From Phycisphaerales bacterium AB-hyl4 (GTDB lineage Bacteria > Planctomycetota > Phycisphaerae > Phycisphaerales > Phycisphaeraceae), in the NCBI GenBank assembly GCA_041821185.1, contig JBGUBD010000006.1:309742-373741 (forward strand): a DNA stretch of 64,000 nucleotides. Direction: 5' to 3'. A program made the translations under genes and the position numbers. Below, in pieces: positions 5,627 through 58,820 of this stretch (positions within the stretch are counted from its first letter, which is position 1; each line of letters opens with the position of its first letter). Under the pieces are notes generated by a model that saw only the letters and a program-made list of their open reading frames with translations, did no database searches and was not told the DNA's origin.

Positions 5627-5655
5627 GAAGCCCACGACGTGACGTCGTGGGCTTC
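5627..5655. terminator. Perfect 13-bp hairpin, CCCACG/CGTGGG family
   Basis: Arms GAAGCCCACGACG and CGTCGTGGGCTTC surround a TGA loop, six bases after the glmM stop and before the convergent pfkB-like gene. It is symmetric, so it could end transcripts from both sides. Related copies occur near 9.85, 15.07, 23.6, 27.8, 50.1 and 63.96 kb. Confidence 0.75.
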
Positions 5656-5683
5656 GGTGGTTTTATTCACAAATCTCAATCGC

Positions 5684-6592
5684 TCACGGCCCGATGACGA
5701 GCATATCGCTGAACTGCTTGAGACGCTTGTCGATCAGGTTGCGGTCGATCTTCATCAGCCGCTCAAGGCTGAACGACTCAATGTTGTAGCTGGCGACCAC
5801 CGTGCCGTAAGCGATCGCTTTGCGCAGGCTGTCGATCGAGTGGTCATTCGCCGCGGCGAGATAGCCCATCATGCCGCCGGCGAAGCTGTCGCCCGCACCC
5901 GTGGGGTCGACCACGTCACGAGCCGCGTACGCCGGCAATGCGCCGATGCCTTCCTTGTGCATGAGGAAGGCGCCGTGCTCGCCCTTCTTGATGACGACAA
6001 ACGTCGGGCCGTGCGCGAGAATTTCCTCCGCGGCTTGGACGAGGTTGGTCTTCTCGGTGAGCTGGAAGGCTTCGGAGTCGTTGAGCACAAGGCCGTCGAT
6101 CTTGCTCAGCAGTTTGACCAGCGACTCACGCTCGTTCTCAATCCACAGGTCCATCGTGTCGGCGACGGCGAGCTCATGGTCGGGGAACTGTTCGAGCAAC
6201 GCCATCTGCGCATCCGGGTGCGTGTTGGCCAGAAAAATGTACTTGCTGTCGCGGTAGTTGTCCGGCACGGGCGGCAGGTCTTCCGCGAGGACGTTGAGTT
6301 CGACGTTGATCGTGTCGCGGTCGTTCATGTTCTCGTGGTATCGGCCGTGCCAGCGGAAGGTCTTGCTGCCGATGCGCGTCTCCAGGCCCGCCAGGTCAAT
6401 GTCGAAGTGACGGAAGGTCGCGAGGAATTTCTCGGGGAAATCCTCACCCACCGCTCCGACCAGCCGAACGGGTCCGAAGAAGCTCGCCGCCGCCGCGAAG
6501 TAGATACTCGAGCCGCCCAGAACCTCGTCGGCCTTGCCGGTGGGGGCTTCGATGGAGTCAATGCCAATGCTGCCGGTAACAATCAAGCTCAT
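5684..6592 (-). CDS. PfkB-family carbohydrate/nucleoside kinase
   Basis: 302 residues. The N terminus (IVTGSIGIDSI, then LGGSSIYFAAAASFFG near residue 28) and the C-terminal signature DPTGAGDSFAGGMMGYLA define the ribokinase/PfkB family, the Asp of GAGDS being the catalytic base. These enzymes transfer ATP phosphate to a sugar or nucleoside hydroxyl. The substrate cannot be fixed from sequence. It is the last gene of a leftward run with the EVE protein and gltX, separated from the EVE gene by a heptad element. Confidence 0.88.
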   Translation of the reverse strand: MSLIVTGSIGIDSIEAPTGKADEVLGGSSIYFAAAASFFGPVRLVGAVGEDFPEKFLATFRHFDIDLAGLETRIGSKTFRWHGRYHENMNDRDTINVELNVLAEDLPPVPDNYRDSKYIFLANTHPDAQMALLEQFPDHELAVADTMDLWIENERESLVKLLSKIDGLVLNDSEAFQLTEKTNLVQAAEEILAHGPTFVVIKKGEHGAFLMHKEGIGALPAYAARDVVDPTGAGDSFAGGMMGYLAAANDHSIDSLRKAIAYGTVVASYNIESFSLERLMKIDRNLIDKRLKQFSDMLVIGP

Positions 6593-6597
6593 GGTAA

Positions 6598-6691
6598 ATG
6601 TCGTATGTCGAATGTTTTAAGTCCCAAATCGAACGCACGCATCCATTCGGCAACACGCACATCCGCGATTCCACAATTCGACATTATACAT
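6598..6691. repeat. Paired heptad element, ATGTCGA type
   Basis: Arm 1 (6598-6618) has units ATGTCGT, ATGTCGA, ATGTTTT. Arm 2 (6676-6691) is close to its inverse complement (ATTCGAC, ATTATAC). The spacer is about 57 bases. The element fills the gap between the EVE and PfkB genes. Confidence 0.6.
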
Positions 6692-6696
6692 GAAAT

Positions 6697-7107
6697 TCAT
6701 CCGCTCATCCGGATTATCTGCTTGAACGATTTCGCGTCCACCGGCATCACCGACAGCCGCGGCTGCCGGACCAGTGCCAGCTGCTCAAAAGCGGGCTCGG
6801 CCTTGATCTGCTTCAGCGTCACCGGGTTCTTCAGCGGCTCGACCGCTTTCACATCCACCATCCCGAACCGCCCCGACTCGTCGCCGGGGTCGGGGTAGAA
6901 CTCTTTTACCACCTCCACGATGCCCACCACCGCCCGCTCCTTGTTCGAGTGATAGAACAGGCAGCGATCGCCTTTGCTCATCGCCTTGAGGTTGTTCGAC
7001 GCCTGCGCATTGCGGACGCCGTCCCAGTGCGTGGTCTGGTTTTTCGCCTTGCACTGATCGTCCCACGACCAGACGTCGGGCTCCGATTTAACGAGCCAGT
7101 ATTTCAT
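6697..7107 (-). CDS. EVE domain protein
   Basis: 136 residues starting MKYWLVKSEPDVWSWDDQ, with HWDGVRNAQASNNLKAMSKGD and CLFYHSNKERAVVGIVEV. This is the EVE (PUA-like) pattern of the thymocyte nuclear protein 1 family. The fold binds modified bases or RNA in characterised eukaryotic and phage-defence proteins; the bacterial stand-alone form has no fixed role. It lies 81 bases downstream of gltX on the same strand. Start ATG 7107 was chosen because homology begins there, whereas the longer frame adds an unrelated leader. Confidence 0.88.
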   Translation of the reverse strand: MKYWLVKSEPDVWSWDDQCKAKNQTTHWDGVRNAQASNNLKAMSKGDRCLFYHSNKERAVVGIVEVVKEFYPDPGDESGRFGMVDVKAVEPLKNPVTLKQIKAEPAFEQLALVRQPRLSVMPVDAKSFKQIIRMSG

Positions 7108-8869: not shown

Positions 8870-8958
8870 GAGTTTCCAGTTTCGAGTTCCGAGTTTCGAG
8901 TTGTCATGCATGACCGTACCGCAAAACTCGAAACTCGAAACACGGAACTCGAAACTGA
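8870..8958. repeat. Paired heptad element, GAGTTTC type
   Basis: Arm 1 (8870-8902) reads GAGTTTC, CAGTTTC, GAGTTCC, GAGTTTC, GAGTT. Arm 2 (8925-8958) reads AACTCGA, AACTCGA, AACACGG, AACTCGA, AACTGA. At the centre is a perfect palindrome GTCATGCATGAC (8903-8914). It lies between the ABC ATPase gene and gltX. Confidence 0.8.
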
Positions 8959-21527: not shown

Positions 21528-21608
21528 GGTTTCTGGTTGCTGGTTTCGGGTTTCTGGTTGGGCCTTTGTCGGCTTAACCAGAAACGAGAAACCAGGAGCC
21601 AGAAACCC
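21528..21608. repeat. Paired heptad element between fliW and csrA, GGTTTCT type
   Basis: Arm 1 (21528-21559): GGTTTCT, GGTTGCT, GGTTTCG, GGTTTCT, GGTT. Arm 2 (21576-21608): AACCAGA, AACGAGA, AACCAGG, AGCCAGA, AACCC. The spacer is 16 bases, so a long imperfect hairpin is possible ten bases after the fliW stop. Confidence 0.85.
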
Positions 21609-25058: not shown

Positions 25059-26153
25059 TCAGGAACCGGAGATCAGGCTCGTGGTGGCGATCGCGGGCAG
25101 GTCGAGGTCGGCGTGCTCGCCCCGTTGATGATAGTCGAAGGCGAGGCCGGCGATCATGGCAGCGTTGTCGATGCAGTACGTCATGGCGGGCAGGTGCACG
25201 GTGACACCCCGTTTTTCGCCGAGCTCGGCCACGCGTTCGCGGAGCAGCGAGTTGGCGCTGACGCCGCCGCCGACGAGCAGGGCGTGCGGCGGCTGGCCGA
25301 GGGCAGCCATGTGATCGAGGGCGCGGTTGAGCTTGGTGATGAGCACGTCGACCACGGCCTGCTGGAATGAGGCTGCGAGGTCGCGGCGCTGCGGGTCGGT
25401 GAGGTCGTCGGCGGAGCGTTCGAAGCGAGCCTGTTTGCCTCGGCCCGACGGTCGGCCGCGAACGGTGTAGAGCAGGGCGGTCTTCAGGCCGGAGAACGAG
25501 AAGTCGACACTGTCGCGGGCGAGCAGCGAACGGGGCAGGTCGCAGGCGGCGGGGTTGCCCTGGCGGGCGGCGCGGTCGACGGCGGGTCCGCCGGGATAGC
25601 CGAGTTGGAGGATGACGGCAGCCTTGTCGTAGGCTTCGCCGACGGCGTCGTCGATGGTGCTGCCGAGCAGGGTCTGCTCGCTGGGGGATTGCATGGCGTA
25701 GAGGGAGGTGTGGCCGCCGGAGACGACGAAGCCGAGGGCGGGGAAAACCGGTTTCTGGTCTCTGGTTTCCGGTTTCTGGTTTTCCGTGAGCAAAGGGGCG
25801 TGGAGGTGGGCCTGGACGTGGTCGATGGCGATCAGTGGTTTGCCGGTGGCCCAGGCGAGGCTTTGGGCGGCGCTGACGCCGACGACCAGCGAACCGATGA
25901 GCCCCGGTCGGTTACCCACGGCGATGGCGTCGATCTGGTCAAGCTTGACGCCTGCTTCGTTGAGCGCGGCTCGCAGGACGGGCTCGATGCTCTCGAGGTG
26001 TGCCCTGCTGGCGATTTCCGGCACGACGCCGCCGTAGCGTTCGTGCAGGTCATGCTGTGAGGCGATGACGTTCGACCGCACCACCCGGCCGTCTTCGACG
26101 ACGGCGGCCGCGGTTTCGTCACAGCTCGTCTCAATGCCAAGAATCAGCGTCAC
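25059..26153 (-). CDS. tsaD: tRNA threonylcarbamoyladenosine transferase TsaD
   Basis: 364 residues, GTG start at 26153 overlapping the stop of the S41 protease gene (GTGA). MTLILGIETSCDETAAAVVE, VGNRPGLIGSLVVGV, the metal-binding HVQAH (112-116), VVSGGHTSLY and VGGGVSANSLLRERV are conserved TsaD blocks. With TsaB/C/E it makes the universal t6A37 of ANN-decoding tRNAs. Residues 123-135 (TENQKPETRDQKP) are an extra loop encoded by a heptad repeat (25750-25786) in frame, between the HxxxH helix and the SGGHT strand, a site likely to tolerate insertion. Confidence 0.95.
   Translation of the reverse strand: MTLILGIETSCDETAAAVVEDGRVVRSNVIASQHDLHERYGGVVPEIASRAHLESIEPVLRAALNEAGVKLDQIDAIAVGNRPGLIGSLVVGVSAAQSLAWATGKPLIAIDHVQAHLHAPLLTENQKPETRDQKPVFPALGFVVSGGHTSLYAMQSPSEQTLLGSTIDDAVGEAYDKAAVILQLGYPGGPAVDRAARQGNPAACDLPRSLLARDSVDFSFSGLKTALLYTVRGRPSGRGKQARFERSADDLTDPQRRDLAASFQQAVVDVLITKLNRALDHMAALGQPPHALLVGGGVSANSLLRERVAELGEKRGVTVHLPAMTYCIDNAAMIAGLAFDYHQRGEHADLDLPAIATTSLISGS
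25750..25786 (-). repeat. Heptad run translated inside tsaD
   Basis: On the + strand GGTTTCT, GGTCTCT, GGTTTCC, GGTTTCT, GGTTTTC. Read from the reverse strand it encodes ENQKPETRDQKP in TsaD. The same unit type forms the intergenic element at 57.06 kb. Confidence 0.85.
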
Positions 26154-33590: not shown

Positions 33591-33681
33591 GCGGCTTGAG
33601 GCTTGAGGTCTGAGGCTTGAGGGAAACGTGGCAGCCCTGCTGCAGCGAACTCAAGTTCCAAGCCACAGGCTCCAAGCCCTC
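33591..33681. repeat. Paired heptad element between rplC and rplD, GCTTGAG type
   Basis: Arm 1 (33594-33622): GCTTGAG, GCTTGAG, GTCTGAG, GCTTGAG, GG. Arm 2 (33649-33681): ACTCAAG, TTCCAAG, CCACAGG, CTCCAAG, CCCTC. The spacer contains GCAGCCCTGCTGC. It occupies most of the first half of the 231-base gap. Confidence 0.75.
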
Positions 33682-41578: not shown

Positions 41579-41589
41579 TTGAAGACTCG

Positions 41590-41615
41590 CTGACCCCTGA
41601 CTCCTGACTCCTGGA
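41590..41615 (+). repeat. Heptad run before rpsE, CTGACTC type
   Basis: CTGACCC, CTGACTC, CTGACTC, CTGGAC, ending six bases before the rpsE ATG and leaving no purine-rich ribosome site. Confidence 0.65.
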
Positions 41616-41621
41616 CAAACC

Positions 41622-42868: not shown

Positions 42869-42984
42869 CGATTTCGGATTTTGAATTTCGGATTTCGGAT
42901 GTGAGAACCCGGAACCGCGATCCGAAGTCGTAAAGCCAGCGTAAGAACTAAATTCGAAATCCCGAAATCCGAAATTCGAAATTC
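42869..42984. repeat. Paired heptad element between rplO and secY, GATTTCG type
   Basis: Arm 1 (42870-42900): GATTTCG, GATTTTG, AATTTCG, GATTTCG, GAT. Arm 2 (42950-42984): AAATTCG, AAATCCC, GAAATCC, GAAATTC, GAAATTC. The spacer is about 50 bases. Arm 2 ends five bases before the secY ATG. Confidence 0.85.
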
Positions 42985-46788: not shown

Positions 46789-46885
46789 TTTGGTGATTTG
46801 GCGATGTGGTGATCTGGCGATGTGCTGAGGCCAGCCTTCCGTAACATCACCCAATCATCAGGTCACCAAATCACCAGATAACATC
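46789..46885. repeat. Paired 8-base-unit element between rpsK and rpoA
   Basis: Arm 1 (46789-46824) has units TTTGGTGA, TTTGGCGA, TGTGGTGA, TCTGGCGA, TGTG. Arm 2 (46843-46885) reads roughly AACATCAC, CCAATCAT, CAGGTCAC, CAAATCAC, CAGATAAC. The layout matches the heptad elements but the period is 8. Confidence 0.7.
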
Positions 46886-55905: not shown

Positions 55906-55995
55906 GGTTTCTGGTGTCTGATCTCTGGTTTCTGGTGATTCACAGCGGGACCGCTACGCGGAACCAGAAACCAGAAACGAGAAACCAGAAACCCC
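55906..55995. repeat. Paired heptad element, GGTTTCT type
   Basis: Arm 1 (55906-55937): GGTTTCT, GGTGTCT, GATCTCT, GGTTTCT, GGTG. Arm 2 (55962-55995): AACCAGA, AACCAGA, AACGAGA, AACCAGA, AACCCC. The spacer itself holds an AGCGGGACCGCT-like palindrome. It lies between pyrD and the zincin gene. Confidence 0.88.
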
Positions 55996-56002
55996 GTACT
56001 TA

Positions 56003-56998
56003 TCAGGGGTATGGCGTGCGTGGCGGGTCGCCTGGCATTTCCAGTTGGCCGATGATCTCATCGATCGACGTGCAGCCTTGATCTTTCAGATACGCCTGCA
56101 CGCCGTCGAGCACCTTCAACGGCGTGGCCGGGTCGACGAACAGGGCAGTGCCCACCGCGAGCCCCGTTGCGCCCGCGAGCAGAAACTCGACCGCGTCCTG
56201 CCAATATTGAATACCGCCCATGCCGATCAGCGGCACACCCGCATCGCGGGCCACTTCGCGGTACACCCGGCTGGTGAGGTACACCGCCAGCGGCCGTACC
56301 GCCGGGCCCGACAGCCCGCCCGTACCGTTGGCGATGCGCGGCTTGCGTGTGTGAATGTCGATCGCCATCGCGGTATAAGTGTTGATCAGGCTCAGCACGT
56401 CCGCGCCGCCTTCGACCGCGGCACGGGCCGTGGCGGTGATGTCTTCCACGTTGGGCGATAGCTTGACGATCAGCTTCGCCTGCTTGTCCATCGCGCTGGC
56501 GACCTCGGCGATCAGGTCCTTGAGTAGCTTTGGGTTCGTGCCGAACGTCAGGCCGTCTTTCACGTTGGGGCAGGACACGTTCAACTCGATGGCGTCGACT
56601 GCAGCCTCGCCCGCGACGTTGCCCGCCACGCTGACGTAGTCGTCCACGCTATGGCCGGCGACGTTGACGATGATGCGCGGCCCGGTCTCGCGCATCTTGA
56701 CCAGTTGTGGCAGCTTGTCGCGCATAAACGCGGCGTGCCCGACATTGGCCAGGCCGATCGCGTTGAGCATGCCGCCGCGGGTTTCGACGATGCGGTGTGC
56801 CGGGTTGCCGGCTCGCGTTTCGGCGGTGATCGACTTGGTGACGAACGCGCCGAACTTTGAAAGGTCGACAAAGTCGGCATATTCGTAGGCGTAGCCGCAC
56901 GTGCCCGAAGCGGTCATCATCGGGTTGGCCAGCTCGAGCCCGGCAAGGTTGACCGCCATGCTCGGCCCGGCGTCGGTGGTGGGGGGGGCTTGGTTCAT
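56003..56998 (-). CDS. pyrD: Dihydroorotate dehydrogenase, class 1B-like
   Basis: 331 residues. MTASGTCGYAYEYADFVDLSKFGAFVTKSIT, NAIGLANVGHAAFM, IELNVSCPNVKDGLTFGTNPKLL with the catalytic Cys, VKLSPNVEDITATARAAVEGGADVLSLINTYTAMAID and IGMGGIQYWQDAVEFLLAGATGLAVGTALF are typical of PyrDB. This class passes electrons to a PyrK partner; no pyrK is nearby. It makes orotate in pyrimidine synthesis. Confidence 0.92.
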   Translation of the reverse strand: MNQAPPTTDAGPSMAVNLAGLELANPMMTASGTCGYAYEYADFVDLSKFGAFVTKSITAETRAGNPAHRIVETRGGMLNAIGLANVGHAAFMRDKLPQLVKMRETGPRIIVNVAGHSVDDYVSVAGNVAGEAAVDAIELNVSCPNVKDGLTFGTNPKLLKDLIAEVASAMDKQAKLIVKLSPNVEDITATARAAVEGGADVLSLINTYTAMAIDIHTRKPRIANGTGGLSGPAVRPLAVYLTSRVYREVARDAGVPLIGMGGIQYWQDAVEFLLAGATGLAVGTALFVDPATPLKVLDGVQAYLKDQGCTSIDEIIGQLEMPGDPPRTPYP

Positions 56999-57055: not shown

Positions 57056-57143
57056 GGTTTCTGGTTTCTCGTTTCTGGTCCTTGGTTTTTTCGAGCAGAA
57101 CCGCAGCATTTCAACCAGAAACGAGAAACCAGAAACCAGAAAC
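57056..57143. repeat. Paired heptad element, GGTTTCT type
   Basis: Arm 1 (57056-57089): GGTTTCT, GGTTTCT, CGTTTCT, GGTCCTT, GGTTTT. Arm 2 (57113-57143): AACCAGA, AACGAGA, AACCAGA, AACCAGA, AAC. The spacer is 23 bases. It lies between divergent pyrD and the 57158 gene. Best-preserved member of the family. Confidence 0.9.
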
Positions 57144-57157
57144 GTTATCTTCCTCTT

Positions 57158-58195
57158 ATGGCAGCAGATCAGACGAGCTTATCGCCCGAGGTGACGGTGT
57201 GGGCCGACGCGCGGAGCGCTGCGGGGGTGATGGCGGTGCTCGACCGGATGGGCTCGGCAGTGCGTCCGATCGGCGTGGGCGGGCCGCGCGAGCCGGGCGT
57301 TGCCAGCGATGCGGGCGTGGACCGACTCGCCGCGACGTTGGATTGCGCCCGGAACGATGATCTGCGGAAACTGCTGGTCGATCGGCCGGCGGCGTTTTTG
57401 TTGCTGGCGACGATGCGCGACGCGAGCGTGGCCGACGTGCAGTCGGCGGTGCGACAGGGCATGATCGTGCTGGCGCTGGAGCCGGTGGTGGAGGAACTGG
57501 CGGAGCTGAAGACGTTGAACCGGGCCGACCGCAGCGCGGGGGCAGGGGTGGGGCGGATCCTGCCCGTGCCGGCGTTCGATTCATCGCCGGGCTATCTCAG
57601 CGCCGCCGAGCCGGGCGATGCCATGGGCGAAGCCCGCACGCTTCATTATGAAAGCCTCGGCACGTCGGCCGAGGGCTCGCTTTACGCTCGCCTGCTTGAC
57701 GGCTGGCGGACTGTGCTCGCCTTTTCATCCATGCCTGTCACGATCGACGCTTCGCTCGCCGCAGCCGATGACGAACTGGTCGGCCGTGCACGCACCGCCT
57801 CACTGCGCGACATGGGCGGCGCCCTGACCGCCCACGGCCGCATGGACGATGGCAGCTCGGCCCTGCTGCACATTGCCGACCGTTCCGCCGAAACCCGCCG
57901 GGCCCTGCACGTGCTCGGCCGAGAGGGCCAGTTACGCGTCGACGACGTCAGCTACAGCCTCCGCCAGATCACCGGCGAACTGCTGGACGAGGCCCGCCCC
58001 GAGTCGGGCGCAACCTTCGCCGACCTGGTCGCCTGGCAGTGGCGTCGGCTGATCGATCGTCTCGACGGCGTCCTGCCTGACCCGCCGTCACCGGGCTATG
58101 AAAATAACGCACTGGCCTGCTGCCTCGCCTGCCTGCTGAGCATCCGCACCGGCCAACCGGAGAGCCCCGCCAAGCTGGCGGAGATCGGGCGGTGA
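57158..58195 (+). CDS. Unknown cytoplasmic protein, 345 residues
   Basis: No family was recognised with confidence. The first 120 residues alternate strand and helix (VTVWADARSAAGVMAVLDRMG, LLVDRPAAFLLLATMRDASVADVQSAVRQGMIVLALEPV), a layout loosely like Gfo/Idh/MocA oxidoreductases but without the GxGxxG dinucleotide loop. A middle part resembles a beta-sheet domain (RTLHYESLGTSAEGSLYARLLDGWRTV), and the end is helical with three cysteines (ALACCLACLLSIRTG). No signal peptide. It may be an inactive oxidoreductase-like protein; this is a guess from shape. Confidence 0.6.
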   Translation: MAADQTSLSPEVTVWADARSAAGVMAVLDRMGSAVRPIGVGGPREPGVASDAGVDRLAATLDCARNDDLRKLLVDRPAAFLLLATMRDASVADVQSAVRQGMIVLALEPVVEELAELKTLNRADRSAGAGVGRILPVPAFDSSPGYLSAAEPGDAMGEARTLHYESLGTSAEGSLYARLLDGWRTVLAFSSMPVTIDASLAAADDELVGRARTASLRDMGGALTAHGRMDDGSSALLHIADRSAETRRALHVLGREGQLRVDDVSYSLRQITGELLDEARPESGATFADLVAWQWRRLIDRLDGVLPDPPSPGYENNALACCLACLLSIRTGQPESPAKLAEIGR

Positions 58196-58202
58196 TCGTT
58201 CG

Positions 58203-58279
58203 GAATTGCTAATTGCTAATTGCTGATTGCATCGGTGAAGGCCTCCAATCAGCAATCAGCGTTTAGCGATTAGCAATTC
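58203..58279. repeat. Paired heptad element, AATTGCT type
   Basis: Arm 1 (58203-58230): GAATTGCT, AATTGCT, AATTGCT, GATTGC. Arm 2 (58246-58279): CAATCAG, CAATCAG, CGTTTAG, CGATTAG, CAATTCC. The spacer is 15 bases. It starts eight bases after the stop of the preceding gene and could serve as its terminator. Confidence 0.85.
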
Positions 58280-58329
58280 CCCCTTGCTCCGGGATTTCGT
58301 CGACATTGCCGGGCCGGGCGGGGTTAGGT

Positions 58330-58639: not shown

Positions 58640-58711
58640 TGGCCCGTGGTGTAATTGGTAACACGCCAGGTTTTGATCCTGGTATTTCTGGTTCGAGTCC
58701 AGGCGGGCCAG
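58640..58711 (+). tRNA. tRNA-Gln (anticodon TTG)
   Basis: 72 bases. The acceptor stem TGGCCCG/CGGGCCA with discriminator G, the anticodon stem CCAGG/CCTGG with loop TTTTGAT (anticodon TTG at 58673-58675) and the T-loop GTTCGAGTC are all present. CCA is not encoded; a run of T follows directly. It reads CAA (and CAG by wobble). Confidence 0.95.
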
Positions 58712-58720
58712 TTTTTTTGC

Positions 58721-58820
58721 AATTTCGAATTTCGAATTTGGGATTTCGGATTTGCCGAGTACCGGAATGGTCATGAGCGACGATCGACAAATCCGAAATT
58801 CGAAATCCGAAATTCGAAAT
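58721..58820. repeat. Paired heptad element over the glmU start, GATTTCG type
   Basis: Arm 1 (58721-58754): AATTTCG, AATTTCG, AATTTGG, GATTTCG, GATTTG. Arm 2 (58788-58820): CAAATCC, GAAATTC, GAAATCC, GAAATTC, GAAAT. The loop contains both candidate glmU start codons, and arm 2 is translated. Confidence 0.85.

Follow-up and report, generated by a model that had tools for sequence, protein, structure and literature searches.

Between two divergent genes of Phycisphaerales bacterium AB-hyl4, a dihydroorotate dehydrogenase ORF (56003-56998, minus strand) and an ORF on the plus strand (57158-58195), lies a hairpin whose two arms are built from degenerate 7-base units, and it raises the question of how a genome comes to hold hairpins of one architecture with units of different sequence. 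The locus was picked out in a preliminary description of the window (the whole 64-kb stretch analyzed here, C6:309742-373741 of a 4.57-Mb draft genome), which counted about 19 such places, saw the rule of two arms and period 7 as conserved rather than the sequence, and favored generation in place over copying. The count was sound: a filter for at least 16/21 matches at lag 7 found 17 period-7 arrays in the window, and 21 were found at 15/21. The named element at 57.1 kb is present as well, and its cores, 57056-57079 and 57114-57137, are complementary at 24/24 bases. Seven of the nine positions listed for the family are full hairpins, a hairpin being defined as an array with an inverted partner scoring at least 12 within 150 bases. 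The position at 33.6 kb is an array with a weak partner, and that at 6.6 kb fell away, being a 2.7-copy repeat inside an ORF (5639-6898) that the filter did not catch. In total, the window holds 7 period-7 hairpins, 3 single arrays and 1 period-8 hairpin (Table 1).

Table 1. Heptad elements of the 64-kb window, with one period-8 hairpin; positions are those of the window.
Feature	Position	Strand	Description
Heptad hairpin	8877..8957	.	AGTTTCG type
Heptad hairpin	21528..21607	.	GGTTTCT type; arms 32 nt, loop 16 nt; RNA fold z -9.87
Single G/T-rich heptad arm	25747..25784	+	GGTTTCT type; partner absent within 150 bases
Single array	33591..33623	+	GGCTTGA unit; weak partner only (score 8)
Single array	41585..41617	+	CTGACTC-like unit; flanked by two called genes
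Heptad hairpin	42878..42982	.	RATTTCG type; loop 63 nt
Period-8 hairpin, architecture as in heptad hairpins	46791..46876	.	GGTGATTT-like units
Heptad hairpin	55906..55993	.	GGTTTCT type; decayed left arm
Named hairpin, G/T-rich 5' arm	57056..57088	+	GGTTTCT type; core 57056-57079, repeat to about 57088
Named hairpin, A/C-rich 3' arm	57113..57143	+	AACCAGA heptads; core 57114-57137
Heptad hairpin	58202..58280	.	RATTGCT type; loop core from 58231, related to other copies
Heptad hairpin	58722..58820	.	RATTTCG type; tRNA gene on one side, gene of GlmU-like protein on the other

At gathering score, the sole Rfam match in the window was the tRNA at 58640-58711, and the hairpins matched no family. 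The right arm of the 58722-58820 hairpin lies in an open frame, ahead of the GlmU-model match (residue 25 on), and may be translated as the N terminus of the GlmU-like protein, whose closest contig-record matches were from a Planctomycetota bacterium (66% identity) and a Phycisphaeraceae bacterium (63%). This 58.7-kb element had no match among plasmid records; the named element had a sole match there, the Acaryochloris plasmid pMB06, in which GGTTTCT heptads stand around a TnpB gene, near ParA (L213 17940-20960), and are possibly, at a guess, partition-site repeats.

That one architecture recurs more often than by chance was borne out in a sample of 1.084 Mb, consisting of the window and 51 stretches of 20 kb from its own genome, among them three (L083, L087 and L091) chosen for a known array, which raises the densities slightly. 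The sample contained 86 array sites, of which 35 were hairpins, as against 1-7 arrays per copy in eight order-3 Markov copies and 1 hairpin over all eight; unpaired arrays numbered 50. At an earlier scale, 464 kb gave 61 period-7 arrays, and one order-2 Markov copy gave 0. When periods 5-14 were scanned, inverted partners were present at period 7 (35/86 sites), at its harmonic 14 (29/66) and at period 8 (12/22), and hardly at all at periods 6 (2/96), 9 (0/78) and 12 (0/65). Whole-genome matches to three RRTTNCN units followed by RRTT number 249, and matches to the reversed pattern 0. Four of the 12 period-8 hairpins have the G/T arm first, with GGTGA-like units, and eight have the A/C arm first (seven ACGCCAAG-like and one CACGAAGG-like). 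The ACGCCAAG hairpins, in which the A/C arm leads and the loops measure 108-205 bases, were seen at L070 19554, L074 459, L084 6271 and L102 2460, and also in L206, at 590, 10079 and 17331.

A typical arm has about four heptads and often ends in RRTT; by their RRYT anchors, 3, 8, 14, 27, 16 and 2 of the 70 arms counted one, two, three, four, five and six, respectively. Loops span 6-90 bases (16-52 in 31/35 hairpins), and the G/T-rich arm is 5' in all 35. By sequence count G-tracts are scarce, with any GGG in 8/70 arms and fewer than four GG runs in 61/70, and on these grounds a quadruplex was dropped as the general reason for four units. Predicted RNA folds reached z -5.35 to -9.87 over 8 sequences, one of them the period-8 hairpin and two the strands of one element. 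Placed against crude gene calls, based on the length of ORFs and their codon-position GC, 31 of 34 hairpins lie between called genes (several overlapping a called end) and 3 inside, the remaining one of the 35 being at a stretch edge and not placed; hairpins often take up the whole gap that separates two genes. The gaps of the 31 are tandem in 21 cases, divergent in 7 and convergent in 3, compared with 303/109/102 for background gaps (p 0.36), and intrinsic terminators were rejected for this lack of placement bias to gene 3' ends. A tie between the G/T strand and replication was also considered and given up: among single arrays of the window's genome, the G/T strand tended to be the locally G-rich one, positive skew being found for 15/23 of G/T type vs 5/22 of A/C type (p 0.007; 5 of the 50 singles, of neither type, were excluded), but the link was not reproduced in other genomes (8/15 vs 6/12, p 1.0), nor was it firm with RRTT singles only (p 0.07) or with one per stretch (p 0.20).

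The units turned out to be less free in sequence than first described, as most fit RRTTKCK. A register score, which favors RRYT by construction, was passed by 107 of 120 arms; in these, unit positions 3 and 4 are T in some 90% and position 6 is C in some 80%, and the other positions are chiefly R/R, then T or G, then again T or G. Four types are dispersed, GGTTTCT, AGTTTCG, RATTTCG and RATTGCT, with GGCTTGA and a few others more distant. Both arms could be typed in 29 elements (6/35 hairpins, with at least one untyped arm, fall outside these) and were concordant in 28, the exception being GGTTTCT/AGTTTCG; random re-pairing of the 28 concordant elements, which served for the permutation and within-type tests, gave at most 17 concordant. 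The observation that the two arms of an element match each other stood in comparison with random elements (mean score 18.6 for own arms, which selection of hairpins at an inverted score of at least 12 inflates, vs 8.6), but not clearly in comparison with elements of the same type. Own/other-element scores within the four types were 20.1/18.8, 20.5/19.1, 19.7/20.1 and 18.7/16.9, and same-type arms of other elements fit about as well as an element's own. The order of units within an arm is nearly uninformative beyond their content, nearest-neighbor identity being 28.35 as observed vs 28.19 with units shuffled (the observed value was reached in 10/300 shuffles), and this near absence of positional information is as slippage would give. 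A ATCGGCGTGGGGCCCCA-like loop core of the RATTGCT type has 7 matches in the sample, 5 of them between RATTGCT arms; in the other three types, loops are common to copies only at chance level, bar single borderline pairs. The one polarity of all 35 hairpins and the RATTGCT loop core argue for descent by copying and thus against the in-place origin first proposed: the heptad hairpins of this genome are dispersed families, not invented singly.

Across 51 genomes the RRTTNCN pattern is frequent in five, led by that of the window (G000, 249 matches) and followed by G012 (202), G011 (90), G048 (48) and G050 (42), and 30 of the 51 have zero matches. Heptads of other units are present in some further genomes, as seen in stretches partly picked for matches. 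In G011 both polarities occur with similar units, so that polarity follows descent and not the unit, and its class with the A/C arm first has a near-constant spacing (95-112 bases in 9 pairs among the matches listed). Single GATTTCG/GATTACG arrays were seen in genus g33 (L145 3192, L160 2240, L193 1453 and G048 C264 40309); they share a TCCGA ending and resemble a separate dispersed family. In G045 (L127 8488-9784), a ribose-phosphate diphosphokinase gene lies between inverted repeats of ~185 bases, 90% identical, that include CATCAGA and CATCAAT heptads and a perfect 40-base pair.

As the window's genus comprises one genome only, orthologous gaps were compared in another genus of the family, g33, between the species G050 and G048, which are 86.5-91.7% identical over five aligned-DNA chains (~88%). 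Ten hairpins were found in G050 and nine mapped, seven of which have a heptad element opposite them in the corresponding G048 gap, while two face other sequence (by eye, an unrelated hairpin class and a degenerate repeat region). All six G048 hairpins were mapped, and all six face a heptad element in G050. An empty gap was seen opposite none of the nine and none of the six. In a MITE control from the same DNA, located by motif only and with 9 sites unmapped, 4/15 and 4/9 mapped sites were shared and 10/15 and 4/9 faced an empty gap, in contrast to the hairpins (Fisher p 0.002, G050 direction). The G048 contigs C111, C176 and C264 had been chosen for earlier matches, and in C111 and C176 the matches were the GATTTCG hairpins themselves; minus these two ascertained sites, G050 sharing is 5/7 and p 0.005. 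Five heptad elements (1 hairpin and 4 singles) were unmapped. Persistence is seen for hairpins and not for single arrays, of which eight were mapped: 3 are shared, 1 faces other sequence and 4 an empty gap. One of the four, in G048, is clearly a GATTTCG array, and the other three, with units unlike the hairpin types, may be chance arrays.

The comparison of gaps that had been proposed for strains showed, in this related genus, that one gap can keep a hairpin and differ in unit type: at three of the seven shared sites GATTAGG units in G050 correspond to GATTTCG units in G048 (one of them a single array in G048), a proportion that is an unfair estimate since two of the three sites are ascertained. 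At a further site GACTAGG stands against GATTAGG in nearly all units of both arms, and at the remaining three the units are the same, or mixed GATTAGG-like, in both species. The flanks of shared sites can be aligned right up to the element, and the loops of orthologous hairpins are mostly unlike. In this small and partly ascertained g33 sample, hairpin sites persist while their arms turn over. In G048 the left arms of two unlinked GATTTCG hairpins, with their irregular units counted in, differ at just 1 base in 42, a likeness that points to ectopic copying. Four species were compared at the gap that separates dxr from an M50-peptidase gene (rseP-like), which contains, respectively, a GATTAGG hairpin, a GATTTCG hairpin, a mixed hairpin and no element. 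The mixed hairpin has GAATAGG-like units on one side and four identical GATTAGT units on the other, a signature of slippage. The loops of the GATTAGG and GATTTCG hairpins of this gap have a MITE fragment in common (score 19; shuffled maximum 12); the arms may have been rewritten around an older loop, or a MITE may have entered both. Another gap has a long TACTCC(C/A) run in G047 and about three units in G050, and for L152, searched against G050, an orthologue was not found.

Two further repeat classes were noticed in the same genus. One, seen at L130 3184-3344 and widely in G050/G048, is a MITE-like family, CGTCATTCCCGCG...GCGGGAATGACG, that is often in one species only and is also present inside the loops of two G050 heptad hairpins. 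In one gap (L148 13344-13584 vs L143 19140-19295), the outer ends AACCACAGA...TCTGTGGTT are common to both species, but the hairpin that they enclose is of ACAGATGAAC type in G050 and of CACAGAGG type in G048. This class has a longer period than the heptads and the reverse polarity, and its switch resembles theirs.

The reading that we tentatively prefer, and to which we would give a little less than an even chance, is that of dispersed quasi-palindrome families whose arms change through slippage, template switching or ectopic exchange. Small intergenic quasi-palindromes with arms of about four degenerate 7-base units would form old families, dispersed by copying in the past; slippage would be the mutational step that alters the number of units and homogenizes an arm. 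A swap of unit type would come from template switching, or from ectopic exchange between elements, in the same 7-base register, site and shape staying as the unit changes. The model requires no function of the elements. Architecture, families, shared gaps and the unit differences between species are seen directly. Template switching is reported to create and repair hairpins (PMC8794818), which makes it plausible that the arms of a hairpin correct each other, but the similar scores of own arms and other arms of the same type do not bear this out. As the stop-to-start gaps are short, a second element may instead have been inserted independently in the same gap. It is rather doubtful, though conceivable, that the hairpin sites are inherited as form, with both arms rewritten together from word to word at a fixed address by hairpin-templated synthesis; the templating hairpin would then be the site itself or another in the genome, and the architecture would be self-propagating.

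Much of the same evidence could be accommodated, if with clearly lower probability than the preferred reading, by non-autonomous mobile elements of a MITE- or REPIN-like kind, each unit type being a family with its own enzyme and a few tolerated gaps being reused. Discrete types, fixed polarity and the RATTGCT loop core fit such elements, as do the similar AAAGRCA-like inner tails beside several GATTAGG arms (by eye), the empty dxr gap of one species, the near-constant spacing of the G011 class and the Y1-transposase matches in element-rich relatives (6 in G050, 4 in G048, 4 in G011 and 6 in G012). The absence of empty gaps opposite mapped hairpins, unlike the MITE control, does not fit them, nor do the loops of three types, which are not common to copies, and no target-site duplication was identified. 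In the genome with the most pattern matches of the 51, that of the window, the Y1 search (PF01797; assembly 96.99% complete) gave one truncated match (positions 2-38 of 121), and RAYT mobilization was set aside for this genome.

An improbable alternative is a selected RNA or DNA structure, be it a terminator, an mRNA stabilizer or a protein site, in which compensatory change would permit different units. The predicted folds are strong, although good folding is expected of any long inverted repeat; sites are common to G050 and G048; and CspB is reported to bind heptad repeats with one protein per unit (PMC4679880). A gene context close to background is not terminator-like, the unpaired arrays outnumber the hairpins, and to turn GATTAGG into GATTTCG many matched changes would be required. 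Pure in-place creation, by slippage and then inverted copying at each site with no spread between sites, is more improbable still. The nearly uninformative unit order agrees with it, as do long perfect single arrays and the TACTCC(C/A) run of different length in G047 and G050, but folding in place should give both polarities where 35/35 have one, and the concordance of 28/29 typed elements in four types, the RATTGCT loop core and the near-identical arms at unlinked sites all run against it. We consider it highly improbable that the arms are synthesized in the fashion of telomerase, by a reverse transcriptase that carries a short RNA template: all that points that way is the constant 7-base register together with the tendency to about four units, in the face of units that are degenerate inside an arm and of several types that coexist.

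Heptad repeats have a history in other bacteria, and Elhai and co-workers reportedly worked on cyanobacterial STRR and small dispersed repeats. A 2007 survey is cited as having found that, among longer simple repeats, heptads are the most abundant in many bacteria (cited in PMC4679880 and PMC4692102). The impression that no described class behaves in this way has to be given up, for the GGGAATC heptads of Xanthomonas largely do. According to that account (PMC4692102), they are degenerate, mostly intergenic, prefer four units and often converge as inverted repeats (70 and 75 cases, with 186 and 183 repeat patterns, in two species); related species mostly have them in the same gaps, with much variation in length and sequence, and there is no preference for a replication strand. 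The planctomycete elements are alike in their degenerate intergenic heptads, about four units, convergent pairs with the G-rich strand first, and gaps common to related species with variable sequence (here in g33, partly ascertained). Unlike those described in PMC4692102, they belong to another phylum, have other units and several unit types per genome, have most arms without G-tracts, and show differing unit types at one gap.

Other precedents match in single features. The same account gives GGGGA(C/T)T as the Nostoc heptad repeat (PMC4692102). The P6b stem of the Nostoc tRNA-Leu intron is a hairpin of degenerate heptads, Class I TDNGATT and Class II NNTGAGT, in which one class replaces the other at one locus with structure similar, as here; that is one locus in a self-splicing intron, whereas the present hairpins occupy many intergenic sites (PMC4476775). 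REPINs, which go with RAYT transposases, are likewise inverted pairs scattered between genes, with a spacer inside each pair and singlets beside doublets; they differ in that the arms here are tandem heptads and the Y1 match in the window's genome is single and truncated (PMC3116915, PMC3733652). By eye, the 6-base flanks of the 35 hairpins contained no GTAG, one CGTC and no common tag of the REPIN kind. The TAACTGA repeats of Beggiatoaceae, Cyanobacteria and Bacteroidetes are also intergenic heptad arrays with a patchy distribution over phyla, but consist of one exact unit with hardly any inverted arrangement, the main genome having 169 direct sets and one indirect repeat (PMC4679880).

Among the titles listed by a literature search of incomplete coverage, none deals with such hairpins in Planctomycetota, and as far as that literature goes the phylum, the coexisting unit types, the mostly G-tract-free arms and the differences in type at shared gaps are new. 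The presence of the four-unit convergent hairpin in a further phylum, with units mostly without G-tracts, weakens the quadruplex as a general reason for this architecture. Pairs of species that differ in unit type at the same address are, moreover, a natural assay for the copying and rewriting of short tandem and inverted repeats.
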